Shown piece after piece: positions 21,824 through 30,969 of a stretch of 64,000 nt of DNA (positions are counted from its first letter, which is position 1; each line of letters begins with the position of its first letter). Below the pieces are notes generated by a model. It had not been told where the DNA came from. It saw only the letters and a list, made by a program, of their open reading frames with translations, and searched no databases. The stretch comes from Acidiferrobacter thiooxydans (lineage in GTDB: Bacteria > Pseudomonadota > Gammaproteobacteria > Acidiferrobacterales > Acidiferrobacteraceae). A program made the translations under genes and the position numbers. The stretch is from positions 434,001-498,000 of the forward strand of contig NZ_PSYR01000001.1 of the NCBI RefSeq assembly GCF_003333315.1, written 5' to 3'.

Positions 21824-21945
21824 GGGCTGAAGGCGACCGTATACTGTGCCCATAGTATAAGGGGGTCGGCCCCGGGTCAAAGTGGCCCGCGGCGCGTGGG
21901 GGCGTGTCCAATGATCGCGCTGACGGGTTTCGCAGGGCGGGCGCT

Positions 21946-22533
21946 ATGACAACGATAGTAGTGGTGCGCAAGGGCGATGCGGCGGTGATCGGCGCCGATA
22001 CCCTGGGCACATATGGTGATCAGCGCGAATCCGCCGATTTCATCAAGAACGCGAGCAAGCTCATACGGGTCGATCATAGCTGGCTTGCCGTGACCGGGCA
22101 TGCCGCCATGGACATGGCGCTCCGCAACATCTTCCAGGAGACCTCCTGTCGGCGTTCGTTCAAGGATGTGAATGACATCTATAAGACGAGCCTGCAGCTG
22201 CATGCCATCTTGAAGGACCATTATTTCTTGAGGCTCGATGGGGACAATGGCGAGGAGGCCTTTGAATCTATGCAGGTGAGCCTCCTGATCGCCAATGCCC
22301 ACGGGATCTTCGGGGTGTGCTCCAAGCGGACGGTCCTCGAATACACCAAGTTCTATGCCTTCGGCTCCGGCGAACAGTACGCGCTGGGGGCGATGCATGC
22401 GGTCTACGACCGCGAGTCGGACCCGGAGCGCATCGCGCGCGCCGGCCTCGAGGCCGCCGTGACCTTCGACACCGGCAGCGGGGCACCGGTCGAGGTGCGA
22501 CGTATCCCCTTGAAGGATACCGGCGCCTCCTGA
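21946..22533 (+). CDS. HslV/proteasome-like Ntn hydrolase of unknown role
   Basis: The 195-residue product begins MTTIVVVRKGDAAVIGADT, so removal of Met would expose a Thr nucleophile as in HslV, whose start is nearly the same. The Asp of GADTLGTYG and the Lys of NASKLIRV match the catalytic Asp and Lys of HslV. It is longer than HslV (about 175) and has no HslU ATPase beside it. It resembles the stand-alone beta-proteobacterial proteasome homologue group, but that assignment is tentative. I chose the ATG at 21946 to give the free Thr; the frame opens at 21904. Confidence 0.65.
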   Translation: MTTIVVVRKGDAAVIGADTLGTYGDQRESADFIKNASKLIRVDHSWLAVTGHAAMDMALRNIFQETSCRRSFKDVNDIYKTSLQLHAILKDHYFLRLDGDNGEEAFESMQVSLLIANAHGIFGVCSKRTVLEYTKFYAFGSGEQYALGAMHAVYDRESDPERIARAGLEAAVTFDTGSGAPVEVRRIPLKDTGAS

Positions 22534-22592: not shown

Positions 22593-24026
22593 ATGGCCGA
22601 GATTACCCTAGTACAGATCAACGATAGCCATGCCTATCTGTATGAGCATCCCGAGGCGTTTGCCGGCGCCGGCGGCACGGTATACCGGAACGCTGGCGGC
22701 TATGCGCGCATCGCCACACTGCTGAGCCGGTGGCGGCGAACGGCGCCGGTCTTGTTTCTCGATTGTGGCGACACCCTGCACGGCACCTGGCCGGCGGTAG
22801 CGACCCACGGTGCGCTTTTGCCCCCGCTCTTGAACAGGCTCGGGATCGCCGCCATGACCGGTCACTGGGAGTTCGCCTACGGCCCCAAGGGGTTCCAGGA
22901 CCGGGCGCGCGCCCTTGACTACCCGGTGCTGGCCTGCAACGTCTACGACGAACGCTCCGGGGCGTCTTTATTTTCCCCCTGCGAGGTCTTCGAGGTCGGC
23001 AATTGCCGCGTGGGCGTCATCGGCGTGGCCAGTAATATCGTCGACAAGACCATGCCGGCATCGTTTAGCGAGGGCGCGTTCTTTACTTTGGGCCTGGAGG
23101 TCATAGGGCCGCTTGCCGCGCGCCTGAGGCGTGATGACAAGGTCGATCTCGTGGTGTTGTTGTCGCACCTCGGTCTGCCGCAGGATCTCAAGCTGCTGGG
23201 CATGGCCTCGGGTATCGATGTGTGCCTGAGCGGGCATACCCATAACCGGTTGTTTGCGCCTATGCGCGCCGGCGGCGCGCTGGTCATCCAGTCGGGGGCG
23301 CAAGGCTCGTTTCTCGGGCGCCTGGACCTGAGCGTGGAGGGTGGGAGGATCAGGGACTATCGCCACGAGCTCGTCTGCGTGGCGGCGGGGATCGTCCCGG
23401 ACGCGGCCATGGCCGATGCCGTGAGCGAGGCGTTGCGTCCCTACCGGGAGGAGCGCGATGCGGTGCAAGCCGAGGCCGCGGGCGGCTTCGATCGTTTTGC
23501 CATGTGGGAGTCGACCGCCGACAACCTCCTGCTGGCGGCGATTCGCGCCAAGACCGGCGTCCCGCTCGCGTTCACCAATGCCTGGCGTTACGGTGCACCG
23601 ATCCCCGCCGGCCCGGTCACCCGTGGCGCCTTGCGGGACTGGGTTCCCATGAACCCGCCGGTCTCCGCAGTCACCCTGACCGGCGCTGAATTGCGCACAC
23701 TCCTGGAGCAAAACCTGGAGCGCACCTTTGCTGCCGATCCCTTTTCGCAGATGGGCGGCTACGTCAAGCGCGCCCTCGGACTGCGCGCCTATGTGAAGCT
23801 CGAAAATCCATCCGGATCGCGGCTTGCGGCGTTGTTTGTGGGCGATGAGCCGGTGCGCGACGAGGCCCGCTATGAGGCCTGTTTCCTGACCGAGCAGGCA
23901 ATCCCCGCGGGGGTTGGGGAGAATCGCCAGGCCCTGGGTCTTGGGGCCGGCGACGTGCTCTGTGAGTACGCCGGTAGTCGCCGCGTGCTGCGCCCTGAGA
24001 TCCACGGGACCTATACGCTGATCTAG
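22593..24026 (+). CDS. SoxB-like metallohydrolase (5'-nucleotidase superfamily) without signal peptide
   Basis: The 477-residue protein has the two-metal phosphoesterase motifs: QINDSHAYL (residue 8), FLDCGDTLHGTW, MTGHWEFAYG, VLLSHLG and SGHTHNR. The GHWEF/YG motif, in place of the nucleotidase GNHEF, is the SoxB (thiosulfohydrolase) form, and DPFSQMGGYVKRALGL in the C-terminal domain also matches SoxB. True SoxB is exported by a Tat signal; this protein starts straight at the first motif, MAEITLVQIND, so it should be cytosolic. The start was chosen at the ATG following GGGGCC. Substrate unknown; no other sox gene is nearby. Confidence 0.78.
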   Translation: MAEITLVQINDSHAYLYEHPEAFAGAGGTVYRNAGGYARIATLLSRWRRTAPVLFLDCGDTLHGTWPAVATHGALLPPLLNRLGIAAMTGHWEFAYGPKGFQDRARALDYPVLACNVYDERSGASLFSPCEVFEVGNCRVGVIGVASNIVDKTMPASFSEGAFFTLGLEVIGPLAARLRRDDKVDLVVLLSHLGLPQDLKLLGMASGIDVCLSGHTHNRLFAPMRAGGALVIQSGAQGSFLGRLDLSVEGGRIRDYRHELVCVAAGIVPDAAMADAVSEALRPYREERDAVQAEAAGGFDRFAMWESTADNLLLAAIRAKTGVPLAFTNAWRYGAPIPAGPVTRGALRDWVPMNPPVSAVTLTGAELRTLLEQNLERTFAADPFSQMGGYVKRALGLRAYVKLENPSGSRLAALFVGDEPVRDEARYEACFLTEQAIPAGVGENRQALGLGAGDVLCEYAGSRRVLRPEIHGTYTLI

Positions 24027-24167: not shown

Positions 24168-25547
24168 ATGGCGGGCGCTGTCTATATCAAGACCTACGGC
24201 TGTCAGATGAACGAGTACGACTCGGCCCGGCTTGCGGACCTTTTGCGGGAGACCCACGGGCTGGTGCGTGTGGACGACCCGGCGCACGCCGATGTCCTGC
24301 TCGTAAACAGCTGCTCGGTGCGCGAGAAGGCCCAGGAAAAGCTGTTCTCCGACCTCGGCCGCCTGAACGAATGGAAGGCCATGCGTCCGGGGGTCGTAAT
24401 CGGCGTCGGAGGGTGTGTGGCAAGCCAAGAGGGCGAGGAGATTCGCCGGCGCGCGCCCTATGTCGATCTCGTATTCGGGCCCCAGACACTCCATCGCGTG
24501 CCGGCGCTGCTCGCCGACGCGCGCGCCAGGAAACCGCGTGTCGACATTGCGTTCGTGGAGATGGAGAAGTTCGACAATCTCCCGGAGCCGCGCGCCGACG
24601 GGCCGCGGGCATTTGTATCGATCATGGAGGGGTGCAGCAAGTACTGCAGTTTTTGCGTGGTGCCCTACACCCGCGGCCAGGAGTTCAGTCGCCCGTTCGA
24701 CGATGTCTTGGCAGAGATTGCCGCGCTTGCCCTGCAAGGGGTGCGCGAGGTCACGCTGCTCGGCCAGAATGTGAATGCCTACCAGGGCCGTCGCCGCGAC
24801 GGACGCATGGCCGATCTCGCGACTCTCATAGGGTATATCGCGCACATCGAGGAGATCGGGCGCATCCGCTTCACGACCTCCCACCCGCTGGAGTTCGGGG
24901 ACACCTTGCTCGATGCCTTTGCCGCCGAGGATAAGCTCGTAAGCCATCTCCATCTGCCGGTGCAAAGTGGGTCGGACAGGATTCTCGCGCGCATGAAGCG
25001 CGGATATACGGTGGCCGAATATCGCGACAAGATCGAAAGGCTACGGTGCGTGCGGCCCGACATCAGTCTCTCGACCGATATCATCGTCGGTTTCCCGGGG
25101 GAGACTGATGAGGATTTCGCGGCGACCATGGCGCTGATCGAGGAGATGCGCTTTGATTTGTCCTACAGTTTTGCCTACAGCCCGCGGCCGGGCACGCCGG
25201 CTGCGGCGTTTGCAGACGATGTACCGGCGTCGGTGAAGGCCGAGCGCCTGGCGCGCGTACAGTCGCGAAATCTCGAGCACGCTGCCGCCATCAGCCGCGC
25301 CATGATCGGACGCATCGAGACGATCCTGATCGACCGCCACGCCCCGCGCGGGCGTGGCGATCTCTCGGGACGGACCGCGAACAATCGCGTCGTGAATTTT
25401 CCGGGCGATGGCCAGGATCTGGTCGGCCGTTTCGCCACGGTTGAAATTCTGGAGGTCCGACCCAATTCCTTACGCGGCCGCCTCGTGGGGGTCGAAACCG
25501 ACGTTCCATCGACGATATCGAAGCAAAGGGAGGCCGCTATTCCTTGA
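24168..25547 (+). CDS. miaB: tRNA-2-methylthio-N6-dimethylallyladenosine synthase MiaB
   Basis: The 459-residue radical-SAM enzyme adds the methylthio group at A37 of tRNAs reading UNN codons. The N-terminal UPF0004 domain has its three cluster Cys ([27 protein letters not shown]); the radical-SAM motif CSKYCSFC with VVPYTRG lies near residue 157; a TRAM domain ends the protein. CAAGGAGCGGG precedes the ATG. It is the first gene of the miaB-ybeZ-ybeY-corC-lnt operon, an order well known in gammaproteobacteria. Its TGA overlaps the ybeZ TTG start. Confidence 0.96.
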
Positions 25548-29640: not shown

Positions 29641-29676
29641 GGCCGTACATTGTAGGCCGGATGGCCTATGGCCCAT
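29641..29676. repeat. Left-end palindromic repeat of the tnpB element
   Basis: The repeat begins GGCCGTACATTGTAGGCC and holds several interleaved GGCC/ATGGCC half-sites able to fold. CATTGTRGGCCG also occurs just outside (29634-29645), giving a tandem 14-base period at the left end. Confidence 0.65.
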
Positions 29677-29714
29677 CAGGGCGGGGATATAAGGCGCATC
29701 TGTCGTGTATCGGC

Positions 29715-29720
29715 TATAAT
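29715..29720 (+). promoter_or_regulatory. Perfect -10 box immediately before tnpB
   Basis: TATAAT lies only 7 bases before the tnpB ATG, so transcription from it would give a nearly leaderless mRNA. No good -35 box is seen at the usual distance. Confidence 0.45.
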
Positions 29721-29727
29721 TCCCGTC

Positions 29728-30969
29728 ATGTTCCACGCCACAAAAATCCGCCTCTATCCTAATGTCGCGCAGCAAGACCTCATCGCGCGGCAATTGGGGT
29801 GTGTGCGCTTCGTCTGGAACAAGGCCCTGGATGTGAAGAAGGTGGCGTGGAGGGAGCGGCGCGAGTCTCTTTCGATCCATACCCTCATCACCATGCTGCC
29901 GGTGTGGAAGGCCAGAGACACTCCCTGGCTCAAAGAGGCCGACTCCCAGGCCCTGCAGATGACTCTTCGTCATCTCGATCGGGCCTATACGAACTTCTTT
30001 GCCCATCGCGCCGGCTTTCCCAAGTTCAAGAAAAAGCATGCGCCACGTCAGTCTTACGCCTATCCCCAGCGGGTGAAGGTCGAGGGCGATAAGGTCTTTC
30101 TCCCCAAGGTCGGCTGGGTGAAGGCCGTGGTCCACCGGGAGATCACAGGCGCCATCAAGACCGTCACGGTCTCACGGTCTGCGACCGGAAAGTATTACGC
30201 CGCGGTGCTGACCGAGGACGGAAAGACCCGGCCGGAGCCGGTGCGGCCTGTCACGCGGGTCACCGGCATCGATCTTGGGCTCAGTGACGCCGTCATCACA
30301 AGCCATGGCGCCAAGACCCCCAACCCCCGCTTCCTGCGCCGGTCCCTGAAGAACCTCCGACGCAAACAGCAGTCGCTCTCCCGTAAGATCGAGGCCGCCA
30401 AGACCCGGTGTGCGGCGGCGGGTCGTCCCGTGGCCGATCTGCGGGACTATTTCGGCAGCAATGTGGCCCAAGCGCGCCAGCAGCTCGCCCGGGCCCATGA
30501 ACGAGTACGCGATGCGCGCACGGATTGGCAACACCAAGTCTCCCGGCGCCTGGCTGACGAAAACCAAGCGGTCTGCGCCGAGACCTTGAACGTGAAGGGG
30601 ATGATGAAAAACCGGCGGCTTGCCCGCGCCATTGCCGATGTCGGCTGGTCGGGGCTTGTCACCAAGCTCGAGGCCAAGCTGAAGGCCCGGGGCGGGTATC
30701 TCATCCGCGTCGATCGCTTCTTCCCCTCCAGCAAGACCTGCTCTCATTGCGGAGCGAGAAACACGACGCTGACGCTGAAAGACCGGACGTGGACCTGTGC
30801 CGCCTGCGGCACCACCCACGACCGCGACGTGAACGCCGCGATCAATATCCGCCATCAGGGCATTTTGCAGTTAAAGGCCGCAGGACTGTCGGTCTCCATT
30901 GTAGGCCGTATGGCCTATGCCCATGGAGGCGGCGTAAACCCATCTCCTATCGGGATGGTAGCTGCCTAG
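29728..30969 (+). CDS. tnpB: TnpB-type RNA-guided nuclease (IS605 OrfB)
   Basis: The 413-residue protein has all TnpB parts: the N-terminal helix-turn-helix (residues 1-45, IRLYPNVAQQDLIARQLGCVR), and a RuvC-like domain with catalytic residues in GIDLGLSD (Asp), CAETLNVKGM (Glu) and HDRDVNAAINI (Asp), plus a zinc ribbon (CSHCG and CAACG). All catalytic residues are present, so it may be active. TnpB proteins use an RNA from the element's own right end to cut DNA and keep the element in place. The ATG at 29728 follows TATAAT directly, and a longer frame upstream lacks coding character. Confidence 0.92.
   Translation: MFHATKIRLYPNVAQQDLIARQLGCVRFVWNKALDVKKVAWRERRESLSIHTLITMLPVWKARDTPWLKEADSQALQMTLRHLDRAYTNFFAHRAGFPKFKKKHAPRQSYAYPQRVKVEGDKVFLPKVGWVKAVVHREITGAIKTVTVSRSATGKYYAAVLTEDGKTRPEPVRPVTRVTGIDLGLSDAVITSHGAKTPNPRFLRRSLKNLRRKQQSLSRKIEAAKTRCAAAGRPVADLRDYFGSNVAQARQQLARAHERVRDARTDWQHQVSRRLADENQAVCAETLNVKGMMKNRRLARAIADVGWSGLVTKLEAKLKARGGYLIRVDRFFPSSKTCSHCGARNTTLTLKDRTWTCAACGTTHDRDVNAAINIRHQGILQLKAAGLSVSIVGRMAYAHGGGVNPSPIGMVAA
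30897..30924. repeat. Third copy of the end repeat inside the 3' part of tnpB
   Basis: CATTGTAGGCCGTATGGCC and the following bases match the left-end repeat with one substitution and one missing G. It lies in the last 70 bases of tnpB, where the guide RNA (omega RNA) of such elements is usually encoded. Confidence 0.6.

Follow-up and report, generated by a model that had tools for sequence, protein, structure and literature searches.

The SoxB-like gene lies in a 64-kb window of the Acidiferrobacter thiooxydans genome, the window being the whole stretch of DNA analyzed here. It reads intact from its ATG at 22593 to a stop codon ending at 24026 and encodes 477 amino acids (Table 1). An alternative 569-aa frame from 22317 overlaps the gene immediately upstream, whose 209-aa product is an HslV/proteasome-like Ntn-hydrolase scoring far below the NCBIfam cut-offs for HslV and proteasome, yet above the Pfam Proteasome cut-off. 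Downstream are genes that we take to be miaB, phoH, ybeY and corC. An IS605/TnpB-like transposase gene is also present at 29668–30969, between what are presumably lnt and pyrC/pyrB. When the 64-kb window was searched by tblastn with SoxX, SoxY, SoxZ, SoxA and SoxB, the SoxB-like gene was the sole match, in keeping with an earlier note on this DNA that had reported no sox genes nearby.

Table 1. Features of the SoxB-like gene and its immediate neighbors (window positions).
Feature	Position	Strand	Basis and remarks
HslV/proteasome-like Ntn-hydrolase, neighbor	21904..22533	+	Profile matches; genus loci
CDS, SoxB-like protein without signal peptide	22593..24026	+	ORF, start comparison, purifying selection
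Metallophosphoesterase domain PF00149	22605..23246	+	Pfam, residues 5–218 matched
D11-S-H13, expected metal ligands	22623..22631	+	D and H columns common to 30/30 SoxB
D60, expected bridging metal ligand	22770..22772	+	Alignment
GHWEFAYG, residues 90–97	22860..22883	+	Alignment; H91 for nucleotidase Asn, W92 for catalytic His, A95 for catalytic Asp
H192, expected metal ligand	23166..23168	+	Alignment
H215-T-H217, expected metal ligands	23235..23243	+	Alignment
5'-nucleotidase C-terminal domain PF02872	23508..23879	+	Pfam, residues 306–429 matched
W331-R332-Y333	23583..23591	+	R332 common to SoxB; W331 and Y333 invariant in 18 family rows
QMGGYVKR, Q386–R393, SoxB-type QxGGxxxR passage	23748..23771	+	Alignment
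miaB, neighbor	24168..25547	+	Then phoH, ybeY, corC; flank conserved in genus loci examined

Across 14 genomes of the genus, that of the window included, the gene is intact in four (G000, the window's own genome, G005, G008 and G011), broken in three (G002, G006 and G009) and not found in seven, some of which are incomplete. At the seven loci it sits between the HslV-like gene and miaB–phoH–ybeY–corC, both flanks remaining intact beside the broken copies. The contigs that carry two of these broken copies have about threefold coverage, and part of the damage there may be read-error frameshifts. Six pairwise comparisons of the four intact copies gave dN/dS values of 0.09–0.22, with dS saturated in some pairs. 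The gene is thus under purifying selection, and it is dispensable in the genus. Each genus locus read has the HslV-like gene ahead of the SoxB-like gene or of what is left of it. Because it remains intact where the SoxB-like gene is broken, a partnership is not favored, and the HslV-like protein is probably not a functional partner.

Pfam matches in the SoxB-like protein comprise Metallophos (PF00149) and 5_nucleotid_C (PF02872). The best NCBIfam match is SoxB (TIGR04486) at 270.9 bits, short of the equivalog cut-off of 550 bits, with the runner-up family at 72.4. The best PDB sequence match is Thermus SoxB (2wdc, E = 2.8e-40). The AlphaFold model (pLDDT 95.4) is closest to the same structure (Z = 44.3, r.m.s.d. 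1.7 Å over 472 residues), followed by Thermus 5'-nucleotidase 2z1a (Z = 41.7, r.m.s.d. 2.4 Å). The predicted model therefore has the SoxB fold; a common fold alone says nothing on function.

Two trees were built to place the protein. Tree 1 contained 70 rows, with SoxB thinned from 117 to 30 rows below 68% identity and with five of 27 other rows dropped for frames longer than 700 aa. In it, 18 rows of the SoxB-like family form one clade (100/99), which joins SoxB and the odd protein L011 at 100/98; the GNH-type nucleotidase-like rows fall outside this grouping. Tree 2 (68 rows) gained 11 plasmid rows and lost 13, namely two long branches, ten near-copies among the nucleotidase-like rows and the L187 piece. 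Here, 26 rows without a signal peptide are grouped (99/90), with a Pontibacter protein bearing a lipoprotein-like N-terminus basal to them on a long branch (99/93). In both analyses the 30 SoxB rows group as a single clade in all 200 bootstrap replicates, and the window protein stands outside it in a sister clade. The earlier note had named a position among ordinary nucleotidases as the outcome that would overturn its proposal; both trees set the protein apart from the 5'-nucleotidases, and that assignment was rejected. As judged by these trees, the protein belongs to a distinct family that is sister to SoxB. The further suggestion in the earlier note of a YcbB-like comparison was off target, YcbB being an L,D-transpeptidase. 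The protein L011 (G024:C3), sister to SoxB, has GNVDFFYN in place of the HWEF motif, with Val where SoxB has Trp.

Active-site residues were compared over 18 genome-contig rows of the SoxB-like family, 30 SoxB rows and 20 nucleotidase-like rows. The earlier note had called both the GHWEF...YG motif and the QMGG passage SoxB-type, and the columns uphold both descriptions. The positions of H91 and W92 hold His and Trp in 30/30 SoxB rows and Asn and His in 20/20 nucleotidase-like rows. The His-Asp dyad (GNHxxD) of the 5'-nucleotidase/UshA family, retained in 20/20 nucleotidase-like rows, is absent from the family, as the catalytic His is replaced by Trp and the Asp by Ala in 18/18 rows. In the QMGG passage (residues 386–389, 23748–23759), Q386 is shared by 29/30 SoxB rows and G388 and G389 by all 30. 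Together with D310, R332, R393 and R410, these residues are present in all 18 genome-contig rows and all nine intact plasmid rows; each is found in 29–30 of the 30 SoxB rows, and they mostly differ from the nucleotidase-like rows. Position 434, where we assume an aromatic residue to stack against the base, is aromatic in 20/20 nucleotidase-like rows and non-aromatic in the family. The roles of D11, H13, D60, H192, H215 and H217 as metal ligands are likewise presumed from the 5'-nucleotidase/SoxB family. H91 is not universal: the metal position is His in 13/18 genome-contig rows and Asn in the other five (GNW, the Sulfobacillus-like branch), and the nine intact plasmid rows all have the Trp, with His at the metal position in seven and Asn in the two Bacillota members. 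The spacing from H13 to G35 is 63 residues in SoxB versus 21–22 in full-length family rows. In the disulfide-linked SoxB–SoxYZ complex 4uwq, the Trp of the HWEF motif is replaced by Cys in the SoxB chain (alignment and structure title), which suggests that the Trp position lies at the carrier cysteine.

The family also differs from SoxB at its N-terminus, which was surveyed in the 18 genome-contig rows (two of which lack the N-terminus) and nine plasmid rows. All 30 SoxB rows of the tree have an upstream RR motif. An RR string occurs in only two family rows (L176 and L178), with no hydrophobic stretch after it. N-terminal hydrophobicity overlaps slightly (up to 1.32 in the family and from 1.29 in SoxB), so the case against a signal peptide rests on the missing N-terminal extension. 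For the orthologue L034, just three codons of open frame precede the ATG, and in L036, L182, L185 and L186 the frame opens 2–4 codons ahead of the conserved start, which excludes a hidden signal peptide in these members; in the orthologue L035 it opens 16 codons ahead with no start codon between. The absence of a signal peptide claimed in the earlier note was thus confirmed, and a true start upstream with a signal peptide, which it had said would count against it, was looked for and none was found; a signal overlooked through a wrong start was rejected. Since the sequence carries no export signal, including the Tat signal of the SoxB equivalog, the protein is apparently cytosolic. Nor is it an ordinary SoxB minus its signal, as the clade examined lacks both the signal and the 63-residue insert.

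The genome of the window (G000; 3.25 Mb in four contigs) encodes two PF02872 proteins, the window protein and a SoxB at about 717.4–719.2 kb of contig C1, which scores 819.5 bits and has a Tat signal match. Ahead of it on the same strand are soxX, soxY, soxZ and soxA (soxY at 112 bits, under its cut-off of 125), and rhodanese, TusA and DsrE2-like genes lie 2.5–4 kb from it. The search for a second, exported SoxB proposed in the earlier note therefore had a clear answer: the organism has the usual exported enzyme in a soxXYZAB cluster, and the window protein is separate from it. A second soxYZ copy (G000:C2:395293–396097; L195:7293–8097), 805 bp long and 99.9% identical to that of the soxXYZAB cluster, was also observed; soxX, soxA and soxB were not found in the 16 kb read around it.

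Outside the genus, the family is scattered. Among 398 sampled genomes of the phylum, 59 gave a match at E ≤ 1e-60, and the window's own genome alone scores as a family member (3.7e-279); the next genome, at 9.9e-96, and those ranked below it resemble SoxB in both score and frame length. Beyond the genus, the closest relatives come from two MAGs, one of Methanotrichaceae and one of Clostridia (46 and 49% identity). Three of 50 genomes of the methanogen order have the gene, one with an in-frame stop, as do 11 of 154 genomes of the Clostridia/Sulfobacillus-like class (E ≤ 2.1e-127), five of which form the GNW-type Sulfobacillus-like branch. Holders thus include methanogens and anaerobic-looking Bacillota. 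Among the 60 matches listed of 74 matching plasmid records, at least eight are at 46–51% identity (two Hymenobacter, Pontibacter, Bosea, two Bradyrhizobium, Novosphingobium and Sphingobium) and at least two at 35% (Cohnella and Sporosarcina); the B. betae plasmid copy is broken into frames. No family member was found in 385 Alphaproteobacteria genomes at E ≤ 1e-110, none of which is a known holder although plasmid members exist in the class, a search of unproven sensitivity there. Candidate links to other sulfur systems were also checked. SoxY model matches occur in only two of 18 family-bearing genomes, both under the cut-off. Strong DsrE2 matches (PF13686, E ≤ 5e-44) are confined to nine of the 18 (four Acidiferrobacteraceae and five Sulfobacillus-like), which does not support the cytosolic DsrE2 pathway as a partner common to all holders.

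Gene company was read separately on genome contigs and plasmids. No sulfur genes adjoin the SoxB-like gene in the window, and the same is true of most genome-contig loci: a core sulfur marker is near two of the 18 scanned, several of which lie on short contigs. L177 has a DUF6691/YeeE pair (PF04143) next door, L035 a dioxygenase-like gene about 5 kb off, and L183 and L185 an ArsR-type regulator and nothing else. On plasmids, nine of ten family loci are near genes for persulfide dioxygenase-like, TusA/rhodanese, YeeE/DUF6691 or DsrE proteins within about 10 kb (6–8 kb where less sequence was fetched), the exception being the Hymenobacter plasmid locus L204. Family models bear out part of these names. 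Two of the plasmid dioxygenases match Blh (NF040641) at 394 and 529 bits, under a cut-off of 625 bits that covers a second domain; one neighbor matches type III SQR and the TIGR01244 sulfur transferase, and three more are rhodanese and metallo-beta-lactamase fusions. Genes for c-type cytochromes are near the family gene in L197, L198, L200 and L203, one in L203 having a SoxA/TsdA domain.

The Trp/His difference was then set against gene company in the wider superfamily. Among 26 plasmid loci, sorted by motif after their contexts had been viewed, a dioxygenase-like gene is near 15 of the 19 Trp-type versus none of the seven His-type loci (Fisher P = 0.0005, exploratory, as the loci are partly related, kinship is ignored and the markers were taken from four counted loci). 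Leaving out these four marker-source loci and one near-copy gives ten of 14 versus none of seven. Annotation keywords counted by eye were positive at 15 of the 19 Trp-type versus one of the five annotated His-type loci (P = 0.028, exploratory; two His-type records without annotation were left out), the positive His-type locus being L220, with DsrE genes. The 16 weak-match loci among the 26, intended as a negative control to the ten of the family, proved mixed: nine are Trp-type (eight haloarchaeal and one Runella), and several of these lie in sulfur islands. In the class of G458, PF04143 (YeeE/YedE) is present in nine of 11 family holders versus 36 of 143 other genomes (P = 0.0003, kinship ignored); no such association was found in the methanogen order (one of three holders versus 12 of 47 others). 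Four of the haloarchaeal plasmids (L207, L215, L219 and L222) encode a Trp-type (GNWD) relative of about 594 aa at about 9.9–11.7 kb, with no signal peptide evident by eye and with a rhodanese plus dioxygenase-like gene about 60–70 bp downstream; these relatives are perhaps a branch of the same idea as the cytosolic SoxB-like family.

Several known systems resemble parts of this picture. Known SoxB chemistry takes place in the periplasm and is tied to the SoxYZ carrier. With the SoxB thiosulfohydrolase (TIGR04486; 2wdc, 4uwq), the window protein shares the fold, the His and Trp of HWEF, D310, R332, QxGGxxxR and R410; it differs in the lack of a Tat signal and of the 63-residue H13–G35 stretch, the score below cut-off, the separate clade and the absence of SoxXYZA from its window. 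The two-domain architecture and most expected metal ligands are common to 5'-nucleotidases, UshA and YunD (PF00149 and PF02872), in which the catalytic dyad and the aromatic residue at position 434, both lost in the family, are retained. According to the available text of a 2020 report, most of the usual genes for thiosulfate oxidation, those of the Sox complex included, are missing from Erythrobacter flavus 21-3; instead, thiosulfate induces a cluster that encodes a sulfur dioxygenase, TsdA and three SoxB-like proteins (D0Y83_01365, 01405 and 01435). When D0Y83_01365 was deleted, sulfur globule formation was almost wholly disrupted, deleting the other two left it unaffected, and tetrathionate was proposed as the substrate (PMC7608252). 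These proteins are likened to the present family by description and name rather than by tree: they have a SoxB-type domain, and two of the three bear the same deposited name as family members here. The words 'signal peptide' and 'cytoplasm' do not occur in the main text of that report, so far as it was available (PMC7608252). The claim that such an enzyme would be new therefore stands in part: no description of a cytosolic SoxB clade was found in the literature searched, whose coverage of subscription papers is slight, whereas Sox-less thiosulfate oxidation with SoxB-like proteins was already published for E. flavus. In the accessible portions of other reports, trithionate is a substrate of SoxB, the SoxYZ thiosulfonate is bound by the enzyme's metal ions, and isolated SoxB reportedly fails to turn over its substrates (PMC5336275); YeeE-like SoxT proteins bring in sulfur to be oxidized in the cytoplasm (PMC11582611), and an acidophilic Firmicute is reported to carry soxB (PMC9387220). 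The Pontibacter akesuensis plasmid (L198:6147–13076) holds three superfamily members close together, a GNW type with a lipoprotein-like N-terminus, an AHW type without a signal and a GNH type, recalling the three E. flavus genes. Its GNW-type member (550 aa) has Trp at the catalytic position and shares the sulfur island; unlike the family, it is likely exported, has Asn at the metal position and is on the long basal branch.

SoxB-type residues, a cytosolic N-terminus and sulfane-sulfur company on plasmids together point to a metal-dependent cytosolic hydrolase of S-sulfonates or thiosulfonates that would act independently of SoxYZ, a reading for and against which we see about equal chances. 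A cytosolic thiosulfohydrolase-like role is best supported, given the genes for persulfide dioxygenase and sulfur transport close to the plasmid relatives. A predicted two-metal site (D11, H13, D60, H91, H192, H215 and H217) would activate water, and R332, Q386, R393 and R410 could hold the terminal sulfonate of R-S-SO3- or R-S-S-SO3-, where R may be a protein Cys, a glutathione-like thiol or a polythionate sulfur chain. The sulfonate would be released as sulfate, leaving a thiol or persulfide; in sulfur islands, persulfide dioxygenase or rhodanese/TusA would take up the persulfide. The substrate may arise from thiosulfate imported by YeeE/YedE proteins or from dioxygenase-made sulfite. That the sulfonate is the substrate and that sulfur flows in this direction are inferences, as is any such role in the window organism, where the gene is without sulfur neighbors. 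The hydrolase reading is hardest to square with the anaerobic holders and with genome-contig genes that have no sulfur genes around them; there, the enzyme may act on S-sulfonated thiols that derive from sulfite or polythionates.

The chief rival is a repurposed phosphohydrolase, in which a cytosolic enzyme of the UshA/YunD kind acts on nucleotides, sugar nucleotides or other phosphoesters and the Trp is common with SoxB by descent, with no sulfur substrate. The Pfam matches are Metallophos and 5_nucleotid_C only, members are deposited as bifunctional metallophosphatase/5'-nucleotidase and similar, and the YunD model 9a7h, YunD being cytosolic, is among the fold matches; the 16 of 18 genome-contig loci without a core sulfur marker and the methanogens among the holders fit as well. 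We nevertheless judge it unlikely, given Trp and Ala for the nucleotidase catalytic His and Asp in 18/18 family rows, SoxB residues at D310, R332, Q386 and R393 in place of the usual nucleotidase ones, the non-aromatic position 434 and the sulfur genes that accompany plasmid members. Improbable to a greater degree is a cytosolic polythionate hydrolase, which would convert tetrathionate or trithionate to sulfate and sulfane sulfur as proposed for the E. flavus 21-3 SoxB, here inside the cell. The almost complete disruption of sulfur globules on deletion of D0Y83_01365, with tetrathionate as the proposed substrate (PMC7608252, available text), the reported activity of SoxB on trithionate (PMC5336275, likewise) and the c-type cytochromes at the four loci, one with the SoxA/TsdA domain, argue for it. 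Against it, TsdA-type cytochromes make tetrathionate outside the cytosol, and the Pontibacter island also contains, in its lipoprotein-like relative, a protein better placed for this chemistry. That the gene is a relic or only conditionally useful, on its way out in the genus and without an important role, is very improbable: the three broken copies and seven genomes where it was not found, with flanks intact at the loci examined, agree with loss, against which stand the low dN/dS of the intact copies, the retention of all expected ligand and SoxB-type residues, and the possible contribution of read errors at threefold coverage.

Building on the cytosolic S-sulfonate hydrolase reading, we tentatively suggest a broader picture, possible though somewhat doubtful, in which a sister family of SoxB, made up of cytosolic thiosulfohydrolases that need no carrier and partly plasmid-spread over Bacteria and Archaea, would strip sulfonate from imported thiosulfate adducts and S-sulfonated thiols and hand the persulfide to persulfide dioxygenase or TusA. 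It would provide the sole SoxB-type enzyme in Sox-less organisms, methanogens included, and SoxB might descend from an ancestor of this kind that acquired a Tat signal and the 63-residue stretch that would fit SoxYZ.

For genome surveys, such a family would be a warning that 'soxB' matches and 'bifunctional metallophosphatase/5'-nucleotidase' labels mix different proteins, and the single position that is either Trp or His points to an easy sequence check to tell sulfur-island members from ordinary nucleotidases. If true, a cytosolic sister family would place sulfonate hydrolysis beside thiosulfate import and persulfide oxidation, and would provide a route from cytosolic thiosulfate or S-sulfonates to sulfate without Sox.
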